From: Granulicoccus phenolivorans DSM 17626 = NBRC 107789 = JCM 15570
Lineage (GTDB): Bacteria > Actinomycetota > Actinomycetes > Propionibacteriales > Propionibacteriaceae
DNA: 64,000 nucleotides
Direction: 5' to 3'
NCBI RefSeq assembly: GCF_000423085.1
Contig: NZ_KE383974.1
Location: forward strand, 62,001 to 126,000
Shown here: positions 4,278 through 14,846 of the stretch, piece by piece
Position numbering within the stretch: the stretch's first letter is position 1
Layout: each line of letters opens with the position of its first letter
Program-made: the position numbers and the translations under genes
Notes under the pieces: generated by a model
What the model saw: only the letters and a program-made list of their open reading frames with translations
Databases searched by the model: none
Told to the model about the DNA's origin: nothing

Positions 4278-4303
4278 GGCCCGGAGACTGAGAGGACAAT
4301 CAC

Positions 4304-5140
4304 ATGGCTATTCGCAAGTACAAGCCGACAACCCCGGGCCGTCGCGGCTCGTCGGTTGCCGACTTCGCCGAGGTGACCCGCTCGACTCCGGAGAAGTCGC
4401 TGCTGGCCCCCAAGCCCAAGACCGGTGGTCGTAACAACACCGGTCGGATCACCACCCGCCACATCGGTGGTGGGCACAAGCAGGCGTACCGTCTGGTCGA
4501 CTTCAAGCGCTACGACAAGGACGGGGTTCCGGCCAAGGTCGCGCACATCGAGTACGACCCGAACCGGACCGCCCGGATCGCGCTGCTGCACTACGCCGAC
4601 GGCGAGAAGCGCTACATCATCGCGCCGGAGAACCTGGCCCAGGGTGCAACCGTCGAGGCCGGCGAGAACGCCGACATCAAGCCGGGCAACAACCTGGCCC
4701 TGCGCAACATCCCGGTCGGTACCACCGTGCACGCGGTGGAACTGCGTCCGGGCGGTGGCGCCAAGCTCGGTCGCTCCGCCGGTGCGGCCATCCAGTTGGT
4801 CGCCCGTGAGGGCAAGATGGCCACCCTGCGCATGCCCTCGGGCGAAATGCGCATGGTCGACGTGCGCTGCCGCGCCACCGTCGGTGAGGTCGGCAACGCC
4901 GAGCAGTCCAACATCAACTGGGGCAAGGCCGGCCGCTCGCGGTGGAAGGGCAAGCGCCCGACCGTCCGTGGTGTCGTGATGAACCCGGTCGACCACCCGC
5001 ACGGTGGTGGCGAGGGTCGTACCTCCGGTGGTCGTCACCCGGTGTCCCCGTGGGGCAAGCCGGAAGGCCGTACCCGGGACAAGAACAAGGCGAGCAACCG
5101 CCTGATCGTTCGCCGTCGCAAGACCGGCAAGAAGCGCTGA
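4304..5140 (+). CDS. rplB: 50S ribosomal protein L2
   Basis: 278 aa, full length. It contains the zone of L2 essential for peptidyl transfer, [20 protein letters not shown] and the adjoining [12 protein letters not shown], near residues 222-256, with the conserved His in HPHGGGEGR. It binds 23S rRNA domain IV and helps join the subunits. ATG at 4304 behind GAGAGGACAATCAC. rpsS follows after 18 nt. Confidence 0.98.
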
Positions 5141-5158
5141 TTGGGGATCTGAGGAAAC

Positions 5159-5446
5159 ATGCCACGCAGCCTGAGCAAGGGCCCGTTTGTCGACGACCAT
5201 CTGTTGAAGAAGGTCGCCGAGCAAGCCGCCAAGGGCAACAAGAGCAGTGTCATCAAGACCTGGTCGCGCCGTTCGATGATCATCCCCGACATGATCGGGT
5301 TGACCATCGCCGTGCACGACGGTCGCAAGCATGTGCCGGTGTTCGTCACCGACGCGATGGTCGGCCACAAGCTGGGTGAGTTCGCCCCCACGCGTACGTT
5401 CAAGGGCCACATCAAGGATGACCGCAAATCCAAGCGCGGACGCTGA
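5159..5446 (+). CDS. rpsS: 30S ribosomal protein S19
   Basis: 95 aa. [19 protein letters not shown] is the textbook N-terminus; [30 protein letters not shown] follows in two adjoining pieces at residues 42-71. S19 binds 16S rRNA in the head beside S13 at the subunit bridge. The site TGAGGAAAC lies just upstream of the ATG. Confidence 0.97.
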
Positions 5447-5465
5447 GGAATAGGAACTGAATCTG

Positions 5466-5924
5466 ATGAGCACGCAAGAGAAGGCACGGCCCAGCCGCCG
5501 CGCTGCCCTGCTCGGGGATCGTCCTGGTTCGTACGCGATCGCGCGTCACGTCCGGATGTCGCCGACCAAGGTACGCCGCGTCGTCGACGTGGTCCGTGGG
5601 ATGGACGTCACCGAGGCCCTGGCCGTACTGCGGTTCGCGCCGCAGGCCGCCGCGGAACCGGTGGCCAAGGTCATCGCGAGCGCCGCGTCCAACGCCGAGA
5701 ACACCGAGTCGCTGCGGGCCGCTGACCTGTACGTCTCGCAGGCGTTCGTCGACGAGGGCGTCACCATGCGCCGGATCCGTCCCCGGGCCAAGGGTTCGGC
5801 GTCCCGGATCCTGAAGCGCGCCGCCCACATCACCGTGGTGGTGGAGCCGCGCGAGCAGGAGCCGAAGCCGGCCAAGAACAAGGGCCAGTCCAAGAAGTCC
5901 GAGCAGAGCGAAAAGGAGGCCTGA
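5466..5924 (+). CDS. rplV: 50S ribosomal protein L22
   Basis: 152 aa. The L22 core begins at about residue 24 ([20 protein letters not shown]) and the beta-hairpin [18 protein letters not shown] near 100-118 reaches into the exit tunnel next to L4. It is longer than the roughly 110-aa E. coli form at both ends: a 20-residue N-terminal lead and a Lys/Glu-rich tail (about 20 aa). The tail is disordered by composition. rpsC starts 3 nt downstream. Confidence 0.97.
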
Positions 5925-5926
5925 GC

Positions 5927-6745
5927 ATGGGGCAGAAGATCAATCCCACCGGATTCCGCCTGGGCATCACCACCGACCATCGCTCCCGCTGGTACGCCGA
6001 CAAGGACTACAAGAAGAACGTCGGCGAGGATGAGAAGATCCGGGTCTGGCTGACCAAGAACCTCGAGCGCGCGGGGATCTCGAGCATCGAGATCGAGCGT
6101 CGCTCCGAGCGCGTCACCATCTTCCTGTCCGCTGCCCGCCCGGGCATCGTGATCGGCAAGAACGGTGCCGAGGCCGAGCGCGTCCGCGGTGAGCTGGAGA
6201 AGCTGACCGGCAAGCAGGTGCAGCTGAACATCCTCGAGGTGAAGAACCCCGAGACCGATGCGCAGCTGGTTGCCCAGGGCGTGGCCGAGCAGCTCGGCGC
6301 CCGCGTGGCGTTCCGTCGCGCGATGCGCAAGGCCCAGCAGTCGGCCATGCGTGGTGGCGCCAAGGGCATCCGGATCAAGTGCTCCGGTCGTCTGGGCGGC
6401 GCCGAGATGAGCCGGTCGGAGTTCTACCGCGAGGGTCGCGTGCCGCTGCACACCCTGCGCGCCGACATCGACTACGGCTTCTACGAGGCGCGTACCACCT
6501 TCGGCCGGATCGGCGTGAAGGTCTGGATCTACAAGGGCGATGTGTCCGGCACCCGTGCCGAGCGCGCCGCCCAGAAGGCGGCTCGCCAGAGCGCCCCGGG
6601 TGGACGCGGTGGTCGTCCGCAGCGCGGTGGCCGTGGCGATCGTCCGCAGCGTGGTGGCCGTCGTCGCAACGAGGACCGCGCCGAGAACACCGACGCAGCC
6701 GGCTCGACCGAGGCTGCTTCCGCTACCGAGACCGCAGGAGCCTGA
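5927..6745 (+). CDS. rpsC: 30S ribosomal protein S3
   Basis: 272 aa against about 233 in E. coli. It starts [15 protein letters not shown]; the KH domain carries the GxxG loop in [18 protein letters not shown] (about 73-90). S3 lines the mRNA entry tunnel. The last 60 residues are an Arg/Gly-rich tail ([20 protein letters not shown]) followed by an acidic Ala/Glu/Thr stretch, a common actinobacterial extension of unknown role. rplP starts one base after the stop. Confidence 0.97.
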
Positions 6746-7163: not shown

Positions 7164-7435
7164 CCATGGCTGACACGTTGAAGGCTGCTGAGCTCCGCGA
7201 GCTGAGCCGCGACGAACTGCGCGAGAAGGTCAAGTCGCTGAAGGAAGAGCTGTTCACCCTGCGCTTCCAGGCGGCCACCGGCCAGCTCGACTCGCAGGGT
7301 CGGGTGGGCGCGGTCAAGAAGGACATCGCGCGCATCTACACCGTGCTGCGGGAGCGTGAGCTGGGCATCATCGCCGAGCCCGAGGCCGGCGTGACCGAGA
7401 CCTCGACCACGTCGAAGAAGAAGGCAGACGCATGA
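7160..7435 (+). CDS. rpmC: 50S ribosomal protein L29
   Basis: 91 aa; the core (residues 5-70) is the usual two-helix L29 with [20 protein letters not shown] and [12 protein letters not shown]-terminal tail of about 20 aa, ending TSKKKADA, is extra. The ATG at 7160 overlaps the rplP stop; an alternative ATG lies at 7166 (MADTLK). The site AAGGAGCT suits either. L29 sits by the tunnel exit near L23. Overlaps rpsQ by 4 nt. Confidence 0.95.
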
Positions 7436-7728
7436 GCGAGAACACCACCGAGACCCCGCAGACCGGGTCCGACGAGCGTCTCTCGGCCCGCAAGGTCCGC
7501 GAGGGCATCGTCGCCAGCAACAAGATGGACAAGACCATCGTTGTCGTCGTCGAGGACCGGGTGAAGCACCGCCTGTACGGCAAGGTGCTGAACCAGTCCA
7601 CCCGACTGAAGGCCCATGACGAGAACAACGACGCCAACATCGGCGACCGCGTCCGGATCATGGAGACCCGGCCGCTGTCGGCGACCAAGCGCTGGCGTCT
7701 GCTGGAGATCGTCGAACGCGCCAAGTGA
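7432..7728 (+). CDS. rpsQ: 30S ribosomal protein S17
   Basis: 98 aa. After a Thr/Glu-rich lead of about 18 aa comes the S17 OB-fold: [20 protein letters not shown], then [21 protein letters not shown] and the closing [21 protein letters not shown]. It binds the 5' domain of 16S rRNA. It is the last gene of the S10 cluster here; a strong terminator follows, and rplN, normally next, is 6.7 kb away. Confidence 0.97.
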
Positions 7729-7774
7729 GCCGTCCGCCGGCGCGGGGCACCGCACCGGCGACAACTCTCGACCA

Positions 7775-7820
7775 CAGGGGTCGCACCGAATCATCGGTGC
7801 GGCCCCTGGTTGCTTTTTTT
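7775..7820 (+). terminator. Rho-independent terminator after rpsQ
   Basis: 15-bp stem CAGGGGTCGCACCGA (7775-7789) pairs with 7794-7808, with one G-T pair and a 4-nt loop, and is followed within 5 nt by seven T residues (7814-7820). It is one of only two clear stem-plus-T-run terminators in the window and ends the S10 transcript before the inserted region. Confidence 0.9.
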
Positions 7821-8032
7821 AGGAGGGTCATCCGGTGGCGGTGGGCCGATTCTGACTCCAGTCGCCGATCGGAGGCCGATTCGGGCCGATTTCGTCCTTC
7901 TGGTGGCAGGATCGGCCCACGTCGTACACCTGAGGTGCCCGCCCGGAGGGGCTATCGCCGAGGCTCGGCGGGTTACTAGTGTGGTGAACCTCACCAGTCG
8001 GCCGGCCCGGCCGACGGCAGAAGGGAACCCGC

Positions 8033-8602
8033 ATGTCTTCGTACCGCATCGGCTACTTCGTCGGCAGCCTTTCGTCCACCTCGATCAACCGCAAGCTGGC
8101 CAACGCCCTGATCTCGGTGGCCCCCGAGGGGCTCGAGTTCACCGAGATCCCCATCGACAAGCTGCCGCTGTACTCGCCGGACTACGACGCGGACTACCCG
8201 CCGGAGGGCCGGGCGATCAAGGATGCGATCGCCGGAGTCCAGGCGGTGCTGTTCGTGTGCCCGGAGTACAACCGCTCGATCCCGGGCGCGCTCAAGAACG
8301 CCATCGACTGGGCCTCCCGTCCCTGGGGTCAGAACTCGTTCAACCACGTGCCGACCGCGATCATCGGTGCCTCGGTCGGCAGCATCGGCACCGCGGTCGC
8401 CCAGCAGTCGCTGCGGTCGGTGATGGCGTTCTGCAACGCCCGCCTGATGACCTCGCCCGAGGCGTACATCCACCTGCAGCAGGGGGCGATCGACGACGAC
8501 GGCACGATCAACGACGAGAGCCTGAAGCCGATCCTGGAGAGCTACATGGTCGAGTTCAAGGAGCATGTGGCCCGGGTGCTGACGGTCCTGCCGCGCGACT
8601 GA
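8033..8602 (+). CDS. NADPH-dependent FMN reductase / NAD(P)H quinone oxidoreductase
   Basis: 189 aa, flavodoxin-like. The N-terminal GYFVGSLSSTSINRKLANAL is the phosphate-binding loop of the NADPH-dependent FMN reductase family (GSxRxxSxNRKLA). VLFVCPEYNRSIPGALKNAI (about 77-96) is the PEYN-S-x-PG-x-LKNAID flavin loop, and GASVGSIGTAVAQQSLR holds the later loop. Soluble; expected to reduce FMN or quinones with NAD(P)H. ATG 8033 is behind GAAGGGAAC. It stands alone between two terminators on the left edge of the S10-spc insertion. Confidence 0.9.
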   Translation: MSSYRIGYFVGSLSSTSINRKLANALISVAPEGLEFTEIPIDKLPLYSPDYDADYPPEGRAIKDAIAGVQAVLFVCPEYNRSIPGALKNAIDWASRPWGQNSFNHVPTAIIGASVGSIGTAVAQQSLRSVMAFCNARLMTSPEAYIHLQQGAIDDDGTINDESLKPILESYMVEFKEHVARVLTVLPRD

Positions 8603-8622
8603 ACCCGCGCCCGAGCAGCGAT

Positions 8623-8656
8623 CGAGGCCTGTCCCCACGATGGCGGACAGGCCTCG
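8623..8656. terminator. Hairpin between convergent FMN reductase and vapC
   Basis: Perfect 12-bp stem CGAGGCCTGTCC (8623-8634) / GGACAGGCCTCG (8645-8656) with a 10-nt loop, placed between the 3' ends of two convergent genes. There is no T-run on either strand. Confidence 0.6.
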
Positions 8657-8680
8657 CCCGGTGTCCGGGATGAGCCGGAC

Positions 8681-9100
8681 TCAGGGAGTCGTGTCCCACG
8701 GATTGAGGCACGCGACCCCGAGGGGTTCGAAGTGCCGGGTGTTTCGGGTCACGATGACCAGCCCAGCAGCTTCAGCCACGGCGGCGATGAGGGCGTCGTC
8801 CAGGGATGCGTGCTCGGGGACCCGATAGGCCGCGAGGATCCGGGCTGCGGCCAGGTCGAACGGCACCACCCGGTTGGCGAAGGCGGGCAGGACGTTCTCC
8901 TCGAACCAACGACGCAGGATTGCCCCCTGCGCGACGTCGGATCGCTGTTTGGCGAGCACTCCCCGTTCGATCTCCGCGATGGAGAAGGCCGAGATGAACT
9001 GGTCGGCGACCGGTCTGGCGGATGCCCAGCTCTCCACGGCAGGATTGCGTCCCCGAACTCGCAGGGCGGACACCACGTTGGTGTCCAGCAGGTATCTCAC
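8681..9100 (-). CDS. vapC: VapC-type PIN-domain ribonuclease toxin
   Basis: 139 aa, normal for VapC. The PIN active site is visible: D6 in [12 protein letters not shown]43 in SIAEIERG, D101/D102 in [11 protein letters not shown], and N120 in [10 protein letters not shown] where many relatives have Asp. The FitB/VapC family cleaves specific tRNA or rRNA with Mg2+ to stop translation; the target cannot be read from sequence. Its ATG overlaps the vapB stop by four bases. It lies inside the S10-spc insertion. Confidence 0.92.
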
Positions 9101-9324
9101 AGATCCGCGGAGCGGAGTGTGAGATCCAAGCGGCCCGGTTCGAACTCGATGTCCGCACCCTCCTCGGTGCTCAACAGGTCCACCATGGTCAGTGCCTCGG
9201 CCTGTAGGGCAGTCGCCAGCAGATCCCGGGCCTCTGCCTCGACCGAGCGGTGATGCAGCGCTGCCCGTCTGCGCAGTGCGGCCAATGTGGCGACCGGAAG
9301 GTTGCGAATCGAGATCTGTTCTAC
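9097..9324 (-). CDS. vapB: VapB/FitA-type antitoxin with non-canonical start codon
   Basis: Ribbon-helix-helix antitoxin. From the expected start the protein reads [V][18 protein letters not shown], then [17 protein letters not shown] (the FitA-like DNA-binding and dimer part), then an acidic tail that would block the toxin. A perfect site GGAGGTGAT (9336-9328) lies 7 nt before codon 9324-9322, but that codon is GTA, not GTG or ATG. No ATG, GTG or TTG occurs in frame until TTG at 9285, which would delete the beta-strand ISIRN that binds DNA; upstream the frame closes at a TGA. Either GTA is used, TTG yields a truncated antitoxin, or a base is wrong. Confidence 0.75.
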
Positions 9325-9336
9325 CCGATCACCTCC

Positions 9337-9356
9337 GATATCAAGCCTATGATATC
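9337..9356 (-). promoter_or_regulatory. vapBC operator palindrome
   Basis: Perfect 7-bp inverted repeat GATATCA (9337-9343), spacer AGCCTA, TGATATC (9350-9356). It sits between the vapB ribosome binding site and the telA stop codon, where a VapB ribbon-helix-helix dimer pair would autoregulate. AT-rich against its surroundings. Confidence 0.6.
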
Positions 9357-10737
9357 AACCAGCGGCGGGTTGTGCGGCCGGCTGGGCGAACCGGGCCGAC
9401 TGGGCGCTGACCGATTCGGGCAACTCGGGCATCGCCGGCAGGTCCAGCGGCCGCTCCGCCTTGGTCACGAGCTCGACCACGGTGCCGGCCAGCTTGTCGG
9501 AGGACTGGCTGATCGACTGCTGCGCGGTGATGATCGCCGCGACGACCTCCTCGCGGGCCTGGTGACCGTACTTGACCGCCTCGATCATCGACTCGGCCTG
9601 CTGGTCCAGCGAGGTGGCGACCTCCAGGATGGTTTCCGGGCGCAGCGTCGGGGTCTGGATGGTCCGGGCGATCTCGCCGGTGGTCCGCGAGGACGCCTGG
9701 GCGTACGCCTGGAGCACGTCGTTCGCGCCGTCGGCGACCACCTGCTGCAGGTTCGCCGCCTGCTCGGCCTGCAGCAGCAGCCCCCACTGGGCGATGGTCA
9801 GCTTCATCGTCGGAATCGTCAGATTGATCAGCAGGGCGAGCCGCTGGCCCAGGCCGTAGTGCAGCGAGCGGGTGTTGCGTACCTGCGGGGAGGTCGACCA
9901 GGCCACGAACAGCCGCTGCTGGAACTCGTTGATCCGCACCGACAGCGCCTCGATGAACTGCACGATCCGGTCGCGTTCCTCCTCCAGGTCGCGCTTCTTC
10001 GGGTCGTTCGGATCGATCTCGATCGCGACCATCGAGTCGTACGCCTCGGTCCGCACCGCCTCCATCACCGCGATCGCGCCGATCAACTGGGAGATGGAGG
10101 CCTCATTGGCCTTGTACAGCTCGTCGCACAGCACCACGTTGCGCTTGAGTTCGCGCTGCTTGGTCATCAGCTCGCCGGCGATCTTGTCCAGCTGTCGCTC
10201 GACGCTGCGCGACTCCTCGAACAGCATCTCCACGATGTTGCGGCCCCGGGTGAAGATCCCCTTGACCGAGTCCATGAACCGGTCGAAGGCCTCCCGGACC
10301 TCGGCGGTCTTGGTCGGGTCGTATTTGTTGCGGAAGTTGCGCATCGTGTCGTTGATCTTGCGCATCGTCGCGGTCAGTTCCGGGATCTCGATCGGGCCGA
10401 GCTCGCGGAAGATCCGGTTCACCTGCATGTTCACCGCATCCAGCGCCTGATTGCCGAACTCGCTGAGCAGGTTGGTGTTGTTCAGCATCTGCGGGTACAG
10501 CTTTTTCGCCGCCGCCTTGGCCTGCTCCTGCTGGGACGGGGAGAGCATCTTCAGGCACGACAGCTCGCCGGGTTCCTGCCCCGGCATGGCCGGCGCTGCC
10601 GCGGGGGTGGCCGGCTCCAGGGTCGCCTGGCGGGTCGCCAGCGCATGCGCACCGGCGGCCAGGGAGTTGTCCGCGGCGCCGGCCGGGGCGGGGGCGCCTC
10701 CGGTCAGGGCGCCGAAATCGATCGCGAGTTCACTCAT
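9355..10737 (-). CDS. Toxic anion resistance protein, TelA family
   Basis: 460 aa. The first 85 residues are Ala/Gly/Pro-rich and poorly conserved; from about residue 105 the TelA domain is clear: NQALDAVNMQVNRIFRELGP, IDPNDPKKRDLEEERDRIVQ, RLFVAWSTSPQVRNTRSLHY and NLTIPTMKLTIAQWGLLLQA. Mostly long amphipathic helices; no signal or membrane segment. Family members were named for plasmid tellurite resistance, but the biochemical role is unknown, and many associate with membrane stress genes. Last gene of a four-gene operon; GAAGGAG lies ahead of its ATG. vapBC follows on the same strand. Confidence 0.9.
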   Translation of the reverse strand: MSELAIDFGALTGGAPAPAGAADNSLAAGAHALATRQATLEPATPAAAPAMPGQEPGELSCLKMLSPSQQEQAKAAAKKLYPQMLNNTNLLSEFGNQALDAVNMQVNRIFRELGPIEIPELTATMRKINDTMRNFRNKYDPTKTAEVREAFDRFMDSVKGIFTRGRNIVEMLFEESRSVERQLDKIAGELMTKQRELKRNVVLCDELYKANEASISQLIGAIAVMEAVRTEAYDSMVAIEIDPNDPKKRDLEEERDRIVQFIEALSVRINEFQQRLFVAWSTSPQVRNTRSLHYGLGQRLALLINLTIPTMKLTIAQWGLLLQAEQAANLQQVVADGANDVLQAYAQASSRTTGEIARTIQTPTLRPETILEVATSLDQQAESMIEAVKYGHQAREEVVAAIITAQQSISQSSDKLAGTVVELVTKAERPLDLPAMPELPESVSAQSARFAQPAAQPAAG

Positions 10738-10768
10738 GTCGTCTCCTTCGGTCGGTCTTCGGGTCGGG

Positions 10769-11890
10769 TCAGCCGCACTGGGTGCGGTCCTGCAGGCACC
10801 CGAGCAGGGCCAGAGTGACCTCCGCGTTCGGGGCCGGGATGGTGCGTACGCGGGGCGCCAGCGGCAGGTCGGGGAAGTCGGCGGTGTTGTTCAGTGCGGC
10901 ATTGGTCGCCGAACGGAAGCCGTACTTCTTCCAGGCCAGGGTCTGCAGCTCGGGATCCTTCAGCGCCTCGATCAGCTTCGCCGCGTCGGCGTCCAGGGCC
11001 AGCAGCGGGTGATCGGAGTACATCGTCGGATCCGGGTAGAGCACGCGTACCTCCTGCAGGACTCCGGCGGCATTCGGGCCGGTGTTGATCTCCTGGATGA
11101 TCTGCGACTCGTAGCCGGCGTACAGCGGGGCGGCGTACTCCCCGCCCTGGGTCAGCCACTGCCGAAAACCGTTGTCCGAGGTGGCCGCCTGCAGACCCTG
11201 GGCGTCGTACAGCTGACGCAGCTGCGGCAGCGCCGCCCGGGCCTCGGTGATCGTCGGCGGGCGGGTGCCGTCGGTGGCGATCGTGCTCAGCTCCAGCTGG
11301 GCGAGAGTGAACCCGGAGTTCGATTTGGCCGGATCGGTGGAGGAGATGTTGATCGGGCCGCGCAGGTTCTGGGTCTGCAGGTCCTGCCAGGTCTTCCCGG
11401 CCAGGGTGTGCTCGATCAGCAGGCCGTGCATGTTGACCACGTAGTAGGCGCCGTCGCGCTGTTCGACCAGTCCCGCCCGCAGCAGGGCGTCGGTGCCGTT
11501 GGGTCCGGCGTAGATCACCTCGGGGGACTGCAGCACGGTCTCGGCCCGGTACGCGGGGAACTGGCCGGCGTGCTTGGCCTCGAACACCTGCTGGGCCGAG
11601 GCGCTGGAGGGCCACAGGCAGTTCCAACCCCGGCTGCGGATCTGCTCGGTCTCGACCAGCACCTGGTCGTAGGACCCCATCGCCTGCCACTGCACGGTCA
11701 ACCCGTGCTTCTCCTTGAGCAGCCGGACGACCTCGGGATCGGCCATGAACTGCGACTTCTCCGAACCGCCCACGCAGCTGACGGTCACCTGGGGGCGGGC
11801 GGTGGTCTGCCGCACGATCAGATAGCCGGCGACCACCAACACCACCAGAACCAGTGCCAGGCCGATGAAGAATCTGCCTCGGTTACGCAT
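10769..11890 (-). CDS. Membrane-anchored extracellular solute-binding-like protein
   Basis: 373 aa. Residues 8-27 form one hydrophobic anchor (FIGLALVLVVLVVAGYLIV) with no lipobox Cys, so it is probably an uncleaved signal anchor with the rest outside. The body resembles periplasmic binding proteins of the ABC type: VSCVGGSEKSQFMADPEVVR at the start, SYDQVLVETEQIRSRGWNCL, and INISSTDPAKSNSGFTLAQL, which parallels the NPTQSNSG segment of the VWA gene two positions upstream. No ABC permease or ATPase is nearby. Starts one base after the previous stop. Confidence 0.75.
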   Translation of the reverse strand: MRNRGRFFIGLALVLVVLVVAGYLIVRQTTARPQVTVSCVGGSEKSQFMADPEVVRLLKEKHGLTVQWQAMGSYDQVLVETEQIRSRGWNCLWPSSASAQQVFEAKHAGQFPAYRAETVLQSPEVIYAGPNGTDALLRAGLVEQRDGAYYVVNMHGLLIEHTLAGKTWQDLQTQNLRGPINISSTDPAKSNSGFTLAQLELSTIATDGTRPPTITEARAALPQLRQLYDAQGLQAATSDNGFRQWLTQGGEYAAPLYAGYESQIIQEINTGPNAAGVLQEVRVLYPDPTMYSDHPLLALDADAAKLIEALKDPELQTLAWKKYGFRSATNAALNNTADFPDLPLAPRVRTIPAPNAEVTLALLGCLQDRTQCG

Positions 11891-11891
11891 C

Positions 11892-12506
11892 TCAACCCTC
11901 CAACTTCGGGATCTTCGGCGGGGCCACGGTGTCCAGATTCGCCCGGTACTCGGCCATGTCGCCGGAGTTGACCAGTCGAATGCTCTCGATCGCGAACTCG
12001 TCGAATCGTTCGACCGCGGCCCGTCCGTCGGTCAGCAGCCGGGGCGCGTCGGTGTAGTAGTCCGGATTGCGCTCGATGTCGGCGTACTGCTCGACCAGGC
12101 CCTGCAGGCTCTGCACATGACCCTCCAGCCGGGAGGCGGAGGAGTACAGGCTGTTCGGGTCGGTCTCGGCGATCCGGTCCAACAGTTCGGGCACCACCTG
12201 GCACGCCCGATCCAGGTCCGCGCGCAGTTCGGCGTCCCGGATCCGGCTGCCCGAGGTGGTGATCTGGCGCAGGATCCGCCGCACCGAGGCCACCTTGGCC
12301 TGGGCCTCGGCCTGATAGGTGTCGGCCTCGGCCTGACGCGCGGTGCCGGCCAGCATCAGGTACGCCCCGACCGCGGCGATCGCGGCGGCGGCAGCGGGTA
12401 CGCCCAACTGCACCGGCAACCCGGCCCCACCCAGCAACAGGAAGAACACCACGAACACCACCACCGTGACGGCGATGGCGATCGGCACCGCGAAGCGCCG
12501 GATCAC
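11892..12506 (-). CDS. XpaC-like small membrane protein
   Basis: 204 aa from GTG 12506 (VIRRFAVPIAIAVT). Two hydrophobic segments at about residues 5-25 and 30-55 are followed by a helical cytosolic part with coiled-coil composition (TARQAEADTYQAEAQAKVAS) and SLYSSASRLEGHVQSLQGLV. Layout and neighbour TelA match the XpaC / 5-bromo-4-chloroindolyl phosphate hydrolysis family, which pairs with TelA in many Gram-positives; similarity is judged by pattern only. A longer frame exists upstream, but it overlaps the VWA gene. Confidence 0.6.
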   Translation of the reverse strand: MIRRFAVPIAIAVTVVVFVVFFLLLGGAGLPVQLGVPAAAAAIAAVGAYLMLAGTARQAEADTYQAEAQAKVASVRRILRQITTSGSRIRDAELRADLDRACQVVPELLDRIAETDPNSLYSSASRLEGHVQSLQGLVEQYADIERNPDYYTDAPRLLTDGRAAVERFDEFAIESIRLVNSGDMAEYRANLDTVAPPKIPKLEG

Positions 12507-12519
12507 CGTACGCCCCCGC

Positions 12520-14118
12520 TCACTTGTAGCCCGCCGCGGTCCGCAGGGCCTGGACCAGGTTCCCCGATTCCACGTACGCCCCGCCCGACGCCTCACCGAC
12601 CGGCCGCAACTGGCCGGGATCGGCGCTGCCGAAGGCGATGCTGACCACCGGGATCCCGGTACTGCGCAGGGTCTGCAGCGCCCCCTGCTCGTCCCCGGAG
12701 GACTGCCCGTCCGACATCAGCACGATCAGGCTCTTGTTGTCGGCGGTGTGTCGCGCCTGCAGGCTGCTCGTCGCTTCCTTGAGGCAGGCGTACATATCGG
12801 TGCCGCCGCCCGGGCGATAGTCGATCACCAGCTGCTCCAACTGCTTCAGCTGGGCCGGATCGTTACCGGTCACGGTCTTGGCGGGCTGCGGCGTACTGTT
12901 GAAGATCGACACGGAGGTCTGGTCCTGCGGAGCAGTCTGCAGCAGATTCACCCGCGCCCGCTCGGCGTCGAAGATCTCGTGGGCGGCCCGCTTGACCCCG
13001 TCCCAGCCGTCCCCGCTCATCGATCCCGAGCCGTCCAGGCAGTAGTAGATGTTGGTCGGGCGGCGGTAGCGGGTGTGATAGCGCGCCAGGGTCTCCTCGA
13101 TCACCGGAGCGGCCGGATAGGTGACCCCCTGCTCGCGGATGTCGGTCTTGATCCCCCAGGCCGGGTTGAACACGTTCTGATCGGGGTTGGTCAGGGTGAG
13201 CCCGATCGAGTCGGCCGGGCGGCGGCCCAGCCCCAGCAGCTTGCTGCGGGCGCCGGCGTCGCGGAGCAGAAAGTCCTGCAGCTCGGTGAAGACCTTCTCC
13301 TTCTCCGCATCGGCCGCCCCGGTCGCCCGGAAGCCGAGCGGAGCGTCGCTGATCGCGATCCCGCCGTGCGGGTAGACCACCCGGAACGGCTGCTGTCCCT
13401 GCTGGACCAGCTGCTGGTTCTGCTCGATCACCAGCGCCTCATAGGTGAACATCGCCTCGCACTCCTGCGGCGCGGCGACACATTCCTCCATCATCGTCCC
13501 GGTCGACGGGGGAGTGCGGTCGATCGCCCGGATGAACGTGCGTACGCCCTCATCAACCTGCGGGGAATCCAACTGCTCCTGGGTGAGCGGCTGGCCGGGG
13601 CCGTTGCCGGCGAAGTGGTTCATGAAGGCGAACAGCGCGGTCGCCCCGGAGTTGGACTGGGTCGGATTGGTCGCCCAGACCTTGGCGCTGCCGCTCTCCA
13701 CGGCGGTCACCACGTCGGCGATGGTGACGTCGTCGCGATTGAGATTCATCCGGTCCAGCACCTCGGGCCGGGCGGCGAAGACCACCGGAGTGAGGAACAT
13801 CGGCTGCACGTGCCGCAGGTTCCCCTCGGTATTGCCGAGCTGGGCGAACACCGAGGAGGCGAACCAGTACGCGTCGTACTGCGTCGACCCGTCCTGCAAC
13901 AGCCGGGCCTGATCCACCGAGCCGAGCAGGTCGTACTCGCAGGTGTAGCCCTTGTCCTTGCACCACGGGGTGACGATCTGTTCCAGCACCGCGCGCTGTT
14001 CGGAGCCCGCCACGATGCGCAGCGTCTTCTTCTGATCGACGCCGCAGGCCGCCAGGCCCGCCAGGAGAACCATCGCCAGTACCAGGGAAGTCAACCGTCG
14101 GAGCCCACTCATGGCCAT
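12520..14118 (-). CDS. Lipoprotein with solute-binding and von Willebrand factor A domains
   Basis: 532 aa from ATG 14118 (ATG 14112 also possible). The signal peptide ends in lipobox LAAC, Cys at about residue 25. Residues 30-340 are an ABC-type binding-protein fold (TLRIVAGSEQRAVLEQIVTP, VWATNPTQSNSGATALFAFM). Residues 355-525 are a VWA domain with MIDAS DGSGS at 362-366, the Thr in GGGTDMYACLKEA and the Asp in LIVLMSDGQSSGDE. So it is a surface lipoprotein likely to bind a ligand and a metal-dependent partner. First gene of the operon with xpaC-like, SBP-like and telA. Confidence 0.88.
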   Translation of the reverse strand: MAMSGLRRLTSLVLAMVLLAGLAACGVDQKKTLRIVAGSEQRAVLEQIVTPWCKDKGYTCEYDLLGSVDQARLLQDGSTQYDAYWFASSVFAQLGNTEGNLRHVQPMFLTPVVFAARPEVLDRMNLNRDDVTIADVVTAVESGSAKVWATNPTQSNSGATALFAFMNHFAGNGPGQPLTQEQLDSPQVDEGVRTFIRAIDRTPPSTGTMMEECVAAPQECEAMFTYEALVIEQNQQLVQQGQQPFRVVYPHGGIAISDAPLGFRATGAADAEKEKVFTELQDFLLRDAGARSKLLGLGRRPADSIGLTLTNPDQNVFNPAWGIKTDIREQGVTYPAAPVIEETLARYHTRYRRPTNIYYCLDGSGSMSGDGWDGVKRAAHEIFDAERARVNLLQTAPQDQTSVSIFNSTPQPAKTVTGNDPAQLKQLEQLVIDYRPGGGTDMYACLKEATSSLQARHTADNKSLIVLMSDGQSSGDEQGALQTLRSTGIPVVSIAFGSADPGQLRPVGEASGGAYVESGNLVQALRTAAGYK

Positions 14119-14477
14119 ATTCAATCCGGCGCCGGGGGCACGCGGGGCCCTTTGAGGTGAATCTTCGGTAAATGCGGTGGGGGTGGCCGGGCAACGCAGC
14201 GTTGGCACCCGGCCGGGGCGTATGGTAATGGCCCGAATGGCATTGGCTTGCCAAGTGGGCTAAGCTTGCCGGGTTGCCCGGGACTGAGCCCATGCGCGTG
14301 TACGCGTTCATGGGGACCTCTTCCGAGCAGCCGACACAATGTCCGTTCCACCAGGCCCAGTCGGGTTTGTCTGTCTCGGCACCGCTGATGTGCGCTCCAG
14401 TTTCCTGCGGAGTTCTCCTTGGCGTGGCCGCGCTGTGCTCTTCCGACGGGAACCGGTGCGACATACAGGAGAAGTAC

Positions 14478-14846
14478 ATGATCCAGCAGGAGTCGCGACT
14501 CAAGGTCGCCGACAACACCGGTGCCAAGGAGATCCTTTGCATCCGTGTTCTCGGTGGCTCGGGTCGCCGCTACGCCGGCATCGGTGACACCATCGTCGCC
14601 ACCGTCAAGGATGCAATCCCCGGTGGCAACGTCAAGAAGGGCGATGTCATCAAGGCCGTCGTGGTCCGCACTGTCAAGCCGTCGCGTCGCGCTGACGGTT
14701 CCTACATCAAGTTCGACGAGAACGCCGCGGTCATCCTGAAGAGCGACGGGGAGCCCCGGGGCACCCGCATCTTCGGTCCGGTCGGGCGTGAGCTGCGCGA
14801 GAAGAAGTTCATGCGCATCGTCTCGTTGGCCCCGGAGGTGATCTGA
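14478..14846 (+). CDS. rplN: 50S ribosomal protein L14
   Basis: 122 aa, exactly L14 length. [20 protein letters not shown] is the canonical start; the frame is open 68 codons further upstream, but ATG 14478 follows ACAGGAGAAGT. L14 forms an intersubunit bridge with 16S rRNA. It is normally adjacent to rpsQ; here it restarts the spc cluster after the insertion, so it needs its own promoter somewhere in 14119-14470. I could not find a well-spaced one. Confidence 0.97.

Follow-up and report, generated by a model that had tools for sequence, protein, structure and literature searches.

What could be the function of an operon that encodes two proteins of the substrate-binding-protein (SBP) fold and no transporter, together with members of the XpaC and TelA families? 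The question is raised by four genes on the minus strand, at positions 9355-14118, of a 64,000-nucleotide stretch of Granulicoccus phenolivorans DSM 17626 (contig NZ_KE383974.1, positions 62,001 to 126,000; hereafter the window), a species of the Propionibacteriaceae with an assembly of 4.12 Mb in 74 contigs. The genes follow each other in the order SBP-VWA (an SBP half fused to a VWA domain), XpaC, SBPL (an SBP-like protein), and TelA. The initial annotation, made from the sequence alone, had proposed an envelope device with an outer SBP/VWA part and an inner helical part, an idea that is partly supported by the results presented here. We give a probability of about 0.45 to the reading of the operon as a trans-envelope device for sensing or stress that is gated by SBPs and has no transporter. 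The observations on which it rests are the linkage of the genes, their domain make-up, the paralogy of the SBPs, the invariance of pocket and metal-site residues, the lack of a widely recurrent transporter gene, and the match between the membrane hairpin of XpaC and the presence of SBPs.

All four open reading frames (ORFs) are present and separated by gaps of 13, 1, and 31 bp, which is consistent with the single operon described initially. SBP-VWA (532 amino acids, aa; ATG at 14118) consists of a signal peptide with Cys25 after a hydrophobic stretch, an Sbp-like domain (around aa 26-355), and a C-terminal VWA domain (around aa 356-532), and its Pfam matches are SBP_bac_11 (1.8e-12) and VWA (PF00092, 1e-15). 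Cys25 is conserved to at least 90% in an alignment of 76 rows (A4; 8 of the 80 loci described below are omitted, i.e., the frame-broken L083 and otherwise close relatives), and the strict lipobox pattern is found in 52 of 80 SBP-VWA proteins, with the misses printed ending in SAGC, TAGC or similar; judged by its N-terminus, the protein is likely a lipoprotein. Residues D362, S364, S366, T440, and D470 of the metal-ion-dependent adhesion site (MIDAS, with the motif DGSGS) are invariant in all 76 rows, such that the VWA domain has, as claimed before, an intact predicted metal site. Invariant to the same extent (76/76) is the SNSG loop (aa 155-158), which opens the helix at aa 156-169 in the AlphaFold2 (AF2) model and aligns by profile with the NPxSSGSARW loop of sulfate-binding proteins. 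In the AF2 model (pLDDT 93.2, pTM 0.88), the SBP half matches best, by VIA, the PDB structures of sulfate-binding proteins (Sbp), 5um2 (Z 26.4, 289 residues, 3.2 A) and 1sbp (Z 26.3, 285 residues, 3.1 A), with thiamin-, glucose-6-phosphate- and ferric-binding proteins close behind Sbp, and the VWA half matches 4fx5 (Z 22.8, 170 residues, 1.8 A). With a Z of 26 to Sbp, an SBP fold with a ligand pocket is predicted for SBP-VWA.

Concerning the second binding protein, SBPL (373 aa) has a single N-terminal membrane helix (aa 8-26, by hydropathy), no lipobox Cys, and no Pfam match, and one N-terminal helix was found in all 78 homologues scored and the lipobox pattern in 1 of them. Its profile aligns along 293 columns with that of the SBP half of SBP-VWA (hhalign 99.6%, E 3.2e-24), and the SBP fold of SBPL is assigned by this comparison. 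The segment TQSNSG/AKSNSG, already noticed in the initial annotation as common to both proteins, falls inside this homology, and by these profiles SBPL and the SBP half of SBP-VWA are paralogues. The motifs GSE, G[S/T], [S/T]P, SNS, and YE align across both SBPs, with key residues invariant or at least 90% conserved within each family (among them S190 and S192 of SBPL, invariant columns in the 75 sequences of alignment A5, from which 7 of 78 loci are omitted), and the invariance of pocket motifs in 75-76 aligned sequences suggests a real ligand. Both SBPs also have profile links to the Sbp family (91.7%, E 7.8e-7; 95.4%, E 1.9e-8), in which an SGG-type loop binds the anion. The Sbp family model TIGR00971 itself is absent from the NCBIfam matches of the four module proteins, and its sole match in this genome (G000:C1:268157) is situated outside the window. 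We read the two SBPs as having paralogous pockets that would receive one kind of ligand.

XpaC (204 aa) starts with a GTG at 12506, 13 bp past the SBP-VWA stop; a longer start given by the ORF lister, at 12596, would overlap SBP-VWA. It belongs to the family PF10112 (9e-10, 39.3 bits against a cut-off of 29.8), whose label Halogen_Hydrol we take to be the name of the XpaC family. The two membrane helices predicted initially are confirmed by hydropathy (aa 7-25 and aa 38-56), and this hairpin follows the presence of SBPs: in 296 genomes that belong to the same class as the window (sampling described below), 33 of 35 hairpin-bearing XpaC matches adjoin SBP-VWA, as do 2 of 32 hairpin-less matches, both being second pieces of split hairpin matches. 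The alignment used for this comparison (A7) contains 26 sequences, all of them hairpin forms, L105 having a foreign N-terminal stretch. In nine XpaC ORFs from TelA loci without SBPs, no membrane helix above threshold was found by hydropathy, one of them (L182) having a module-type N-terminus and an A7 match from position 1. The same hydropathy rule, applied to 73 module XpaC, yielded 2 without a helix and 30 with only one, so that it evidently misses some. XpaC beside TelA alone or in operons with PknG thus looks mostly soluble by its sequence, and a simple reading would be that the helical domain of XpaC is cytosolic and that the membrane hairpin is present where the partners lie outside the cell.

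TelA (460 aa) is a divergent member of its family (PF05816, 1.8e-22, 80.3 bits against a cut-off of 30) with long helices and, by hydropathy, no membrane helix. Its AF2 model (pLDDT 60, pTM 0.47) has best VIA matches of Z 12.1 or less to helical bundles (pore-forming proteins, CorA), which is within noise for helical models.

How constant this set of genes is was followed in two samples. A scan of a genome contig collection with SBP-VWA gave 258 relatives, of which the best 80, a set biased to the query, were taken as loci. They carry 43 genus-level labels and come chiefly from actinobacteria, but also from Herpetosiphonaceae, Caldilineaceae, Dormibacterota, Chthonomonas, and gammaproteobacterial metagenome-assembled genomes; the module recurs in many soil and skin bacteria. 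By a six-frame profile scan, SBPL is located near SBP-VWA on the same strand at 78 of 80 loci (the others are L088 and L090, the latter cut by its contig), an XpaC-like gene at 73, and TelA at 47. The XpaC counts are lower bounds, since at three of the seven loci without an XpaC match (L084, L085, L104) the next gene has a fitting size and is predicted to encode a membrane helix. The order SBPL-TelA-SBPVWA-XpaC was found at 25 loci, at one more with an extra XpaC-like match and at another one cut by its contig, and the order SBPVWA-XpaC-SBPL-TelA at 20; versions of the two without TelA amount to 11 and 15 loci, respectively, and pairs or singles to 7. The two orders are circular permutations of each other, and in a quick SBP-VWA tree one branch (SH-aLRT 100) splits all 37 rows of one order (A) from all 41 rows of the other (B), corresponding to one change. 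On the same tree, the presence of TelA changes at least eight times, with L049 scored as absent although its contig ends there.

The second, less biased sample consisted of the 296 genomes, searched for TelA, SBPL, SBP-VWA, and XpaC with neighbours counted within 3 kb. Of 91 SBP-VWA rows, 44 were kept as module-type and 47 (at most 166 bits) dropped, the limit of 300 bits having been set after the gap from 302 to 166 was seen; SBPL rows with E above 1e-20, many of them SBP halves of SBP-VWA, and the 9 weakest of 76 XpaC rows were also dropped, and two rows of genome G334 were merged. SBPL is located near all 44 module-type SBP-VWA genes, XpaC near 33, and TelA near 23; conversely, 44 of 47 SBPL places have SBP-VWA nearby (G440, G256, and G840 lack this partner). 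TelA was found at 58 places, with XpaC near 52 and SBP-VWA near 23 of them. These linkages are given as counts and not as a Fisher p-value, which would disregard the kinship of the genomes. From these places, 20 neighbourhoods were picked by hand for spread, not at random: 8 are modules, 3 PknG operons, 1 a TelA-AAA arrangement, 5 TelA-XpaC only, and 3 TelA alone. According to these linkage counts, the two SBPs are tied to each other, as are TelA and XpaC, and both pairs meet in the module. A chance gene cluster is rejected on the tree split of the gene orders and the linkage in the 296 genomes. What stays constant is the pair of SBPs, in most cases joined by XpaC; TelA is optional. The initial proposal that the genes form a conserved unit is supported. 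Occurrence outside such a unit, named initially as evidence against it, is seen for TelA and XpaC, which are also found together without SBPs, and for distant SBP-VWA relatives, but hardly for the module-type SBPs. Among genomes with a TelA-less module, TelA is encoded elsewhere in 2 of 18 (none in 16) picked from the best 80 loci and in 11 of 18 (none in 7) for the 296-genome sample; according to the latter, TelA acting in trans is possible in some hosts, but not in all.

Several variants of the binding proteins were encountered in these searches. A distant SBP-VWA-like group, with frames of around 600 aa, has no SBPL near (G722:C71:492838, G688:C10:144588, G743:C1:2822317, G643:C141:11362, and others). 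A separate SBPL search yielded matches in 11 of 396 genomes, in nine of which SBP-VWA is close; the other two, G440 and G256 (loci L146 and L147), possess an SBPL-like protein of around 500 aa that is extended at its N-terminus, and no SBP-VWA was detected in the vicinity. On the opposite strand of L146, a set of DUF5682, AAA_5, and VWA_CoxE genes is situated.

Beyond these observations, we infer the ligand class, direct contacts between the module proteins, their topology, the direction of signalling, and an output in sensing or stress response as follows. Outside the membrane, the lipoprotein SBP-VWA and its membrane-anchored paralogue SBPL would bind, in their Sbp-related pockets, a small ligand that is probably an anion or carries an anionic group. 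Ligand binding might alter a metal-dependent docking of the VWA domain on a partner, perhaps SBPL or a wall component, and XpaC, with its membrane hairpin and cytoplasmic helical domain, could relay this change inward. TelA, where present, would be a cytosolic helical effector bound to XpaC, and the output would probably be envelope-stress tolerance, by analogy with xpaC-yaaN of Firmicutes. The split into an outer SBP/VWA part and an inner helical part, as proposed initially, fits the sequences, whereas TelA as an obligatory local partner does not, being near 23 of 44 modules.

A number of observations weigh against the sensing or stress device. TelA is not near about half of the modules, and XpaC was undetected at 11 of 44; two hairpin-bearing XpaC, L182 among them, adjoin TelA without SBPs. 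Of the 47 weaker SBP-VWA relatives, 32 extend into the SBP half, but for none of these was a separate SBPL found within 3 kb, which implies that the fusion can work without the pair and that the pairing of SBPs is confined to the module type. Two invariant residues, E40 and E227, appear out of place in a pocket purely for anions, and no kinase, regulator or enzyme is linked to the module, such that no output is apparent. The module of L149 adjoins an ABC importer, and the phenotype and regulation data on TelA-XpaC stem from Firmicutes.

The main rival, in our estimate a doubtful one, is a structural envelope scaffold, in which the SBP pair and the VWA domain would hold a wall or membrane component constitutively and XpaC-TelA would brace the membrane from inside, without any ligand signalling. 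MIDAS domains often serve adhesion, and the lack of a recurrent signalling gene in the flanks is as expected for a scaffold; moreover, the TelA/XpaC phenotype and regulation, according to two reports, point to cell-wall-active compounds (PMC12791056, PMC3498285). However, both SBPs keep their pocket motifs invariant in the 75-76 aligned sequences, and TelA, the inner brace, is often not nearby.

That the two proteins are orphan SBPs of an ABC importer whose genes lie in another part of the genome is improbable, even though the fold matches best that of Sbp and of thiamin- and ferric-binding proteins. In agreement with the initial annotation, which saw neither an ABC ATPase nor a permease near the module, a motif scan of the 64-kb window revealed no ORF with Walker A and ABC signature at the usual spacing, and inspection by eye of the listed genes between 2308 and 24000 showed no recognisable ABC permease. 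Among 537 flanking ORFs kept from the 80 loci, no widely recurrent partner that could represent a fifth gene was found; the widest cluster comprises seven genera and resembles scattered ABC ATPases. ABC-ATPase-like ORFs are located within 5 kb at 19 of 80 loci, nine of them being one gene of the Kitasatospora/Streptomyces group at a distance of 2.7-4.4 kb; in this check, ATPases were detected by motif and permeases only via the flank clusters. As a general explanation, the importer is thus rejected, with L149 as the exception: there (L149:6268-12085), an NMT1-type ABC importer lies immediately upstream of SBPL and SBP-VWA, beyond which TelA is located (4283-5947). This importer has its own SBP, however. 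The earlier view that the binding folds probably do not feed a transporter is supported in so far as no transporter gene recurs widely beside the module. The fusion to VWA, the near-obligate pairing of the two SBPs, and the separate Sbp-type gene in the genome of G. phenolivorans likewise speak against orphan SBPs.

Quite improbable, too, is a resistance to oxyanions or tellurite, in which the SBPs would capture toxic oxyanions and TelA-XpaC would detoxify or exclude them. The family name of TelA and the Sbp-like pocket point in this direction, and a disruption mutant of lmo1967 (TelA) is, according to PMC12791056 (citing Collins 2010), 2-fold more sensitive to tellurite. The same mutant is 4-fold more sensitive to nisin, the larger of the two effects, with the mechanism given as unknown; furthermore, no redox enzyme or efflux gene is widely recurrent in the flanks, and TelA is optional. 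An anti-phage or interbacterial conflict system is highly improbable, its support being a weak PADLOC match of TelA to ZorA (2.2e-4), while SBP-VWA, XpaC, and SBPL have no PADLOC match, the flanks are varied and, judged by eye, largely housekeeping without a recurrent partner, and the homologue records include none from phages and five from plasmids, all below 26% identity; Zorya in particular is rejected, as TelA has no membrane helix.

The positions of the genes and of their main motifs are given in the table.

Features of the SBP-VWA/XpaC/SBPL/TelA module (positions in the window) and the evidence for each
Feature	Position	Strand	Evidence
SBP-VWA gene	12520..14118	-	Pfam matches, AF2 model, PDB structure matches
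SNSG pocket loop of SBP-VWA, aa 155-158	13645..13656	-	76/76 alignment rows
MIDAS motif DGSGS of SBP-VWA, aa 362-366	13021..13035	-	76/76 alignment rows
XpaC gene	11892..12506	-	PF10112 match, hydropathy
XpaC membrane hairpin, aa 7-56	12339..12488	-	hydropathy and comparison of XpaC matches
SBPL gene	10769..11890	-	hhalign to SBP-VWA profile; homologue scoring
SNS pocket loop of SBPL, aa 190-192	11315..11323	-	invariant alignment columns
TelA gene	9355..10737	-	PF05816 match, hydropathy, AF2

The module is flanked by the ribosomal-protein genes rpsQ (7432-7728) and rplN (ATG at around 14478), both recognised by eye, such that within 7432-14846 rpsQ is parted from rplN by the module, an FMN reductase, and a VapBC-like pair; the latter (8681-9300, on the module's strand) consists of a PIN-domain VapC-like gene with a short antitoxin-like ORF upstream. 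In the sister locus L051, the module is surrounded by different ribosomal-protein genes (rplK, rplA, and rplJ, as recognised by eye). The search for sigma-70-like promoters found none, and terminator-like sites numbered 5, compared to 1.9 in shuffled sequences, every one on the plus strand.

In the open-licence literature, no prior account of the module was found (most subscription papers lie outside this search), nor any open-licence PMC paper treating TelA, XpaC, and VWA together, whereas "Substrate-binding and VWA domain-containing protein" already exists as an annotation name in public records. Compared with Sbp (TIGR00971), the module SBPs share the fold, as modelled for the SBP half, and the aligned loops GSxDQ, NPxxSxS, and YE, but they fall outside TIGR00971, have no linked transporter, and are fused to VWA or anchored in the membrane. 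An SBP fold is also found in 6lkg ("two-component system protein mediate signal transduction"; Z 24.8, 266 residues, 2.8 A to the SBP-VWA model), presumably HptA with a sensing role; unlike in that system, no histidine kinase or response regulator was seen in the module.

The pair of XpaC and TelA genes is known from xpaC-yaaN of Bacillus and lmo1966-lmo1967 of Listeria. The sigma-W regulon of B. subtilis serves envelope stress. Its core includes, as listed in PMC3498285, xpaC-yaaN. As far as the available descriptions go, the Bacillus and Listeria operons contain only xpaC and yaaN/TelA (with an RNA segment), whereas the module contains two SBPs and a VWA domain in addition and often has no TelA. 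TelA and XpaC are thus widespread families without a known mechanism in the papers examined, to which the module supplies extracytoplasmic partners with a conserved pocket and metal site, and the correlation between the XpaC hairpin and the SBPs makes topology and the direction of information flow testable.

A functional parallel is GlnH-GlnX-PknG, in which, according to PMC9769921 and PMC6069109, the lipoprotein SBP GlnH regulates PknG via GlnX. As in the proposed device, a lipoprotein SBP is coupled for sensing to one component in the membrane and another in the cytosol, but the system has SBP_bac_3, the four-helix sensor GlnX, and the kinase PknG, none of which was seen in the module; the module possesses two SBPs, VWA, and the XpaC hairpin instead. 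With an SBP half of SBP_bac_11, an SBPL without a Pfam family, and no recurrent fifth gene, it is not a member of this system. The same genome contains, in one apparent operon (L012:7720-17798; G000:C2:47719-57797), a canonical TelA, followed by a soluble-looking XpaC-like protein (hhalign 97%, E 1.1e-10), an AAA ATPase, a GlnX-like protein (4HB_MCP_1, below cut-off), GlnH (SBP_bac_3), a linker protein, and PknG. A search of the open-licence literature for PknG in combination with TelA listed one paper, which deals with EssB. Together with the sigma-W and lmo1967 data, GlnH-GlnX-PknG favours an SBP-gated envelope sensing or stress response for the module. We tentatively consider the module a widespread unnamed trans-envelope system, in which paired Sbp-type proteins, one with VWA, would be wired via the XpaC hairpin to TelA, and TelA-XpaC a possible general cytosolic output unit that was combined in evolution with various SBP sensors devoid of transporters, bearing a hairpin in the module and none in the GlnH-GlnX-PknG operons. 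The PknG operons set TelA-XpaC beside a well-studied pathway leading from an SBP to a kinase.

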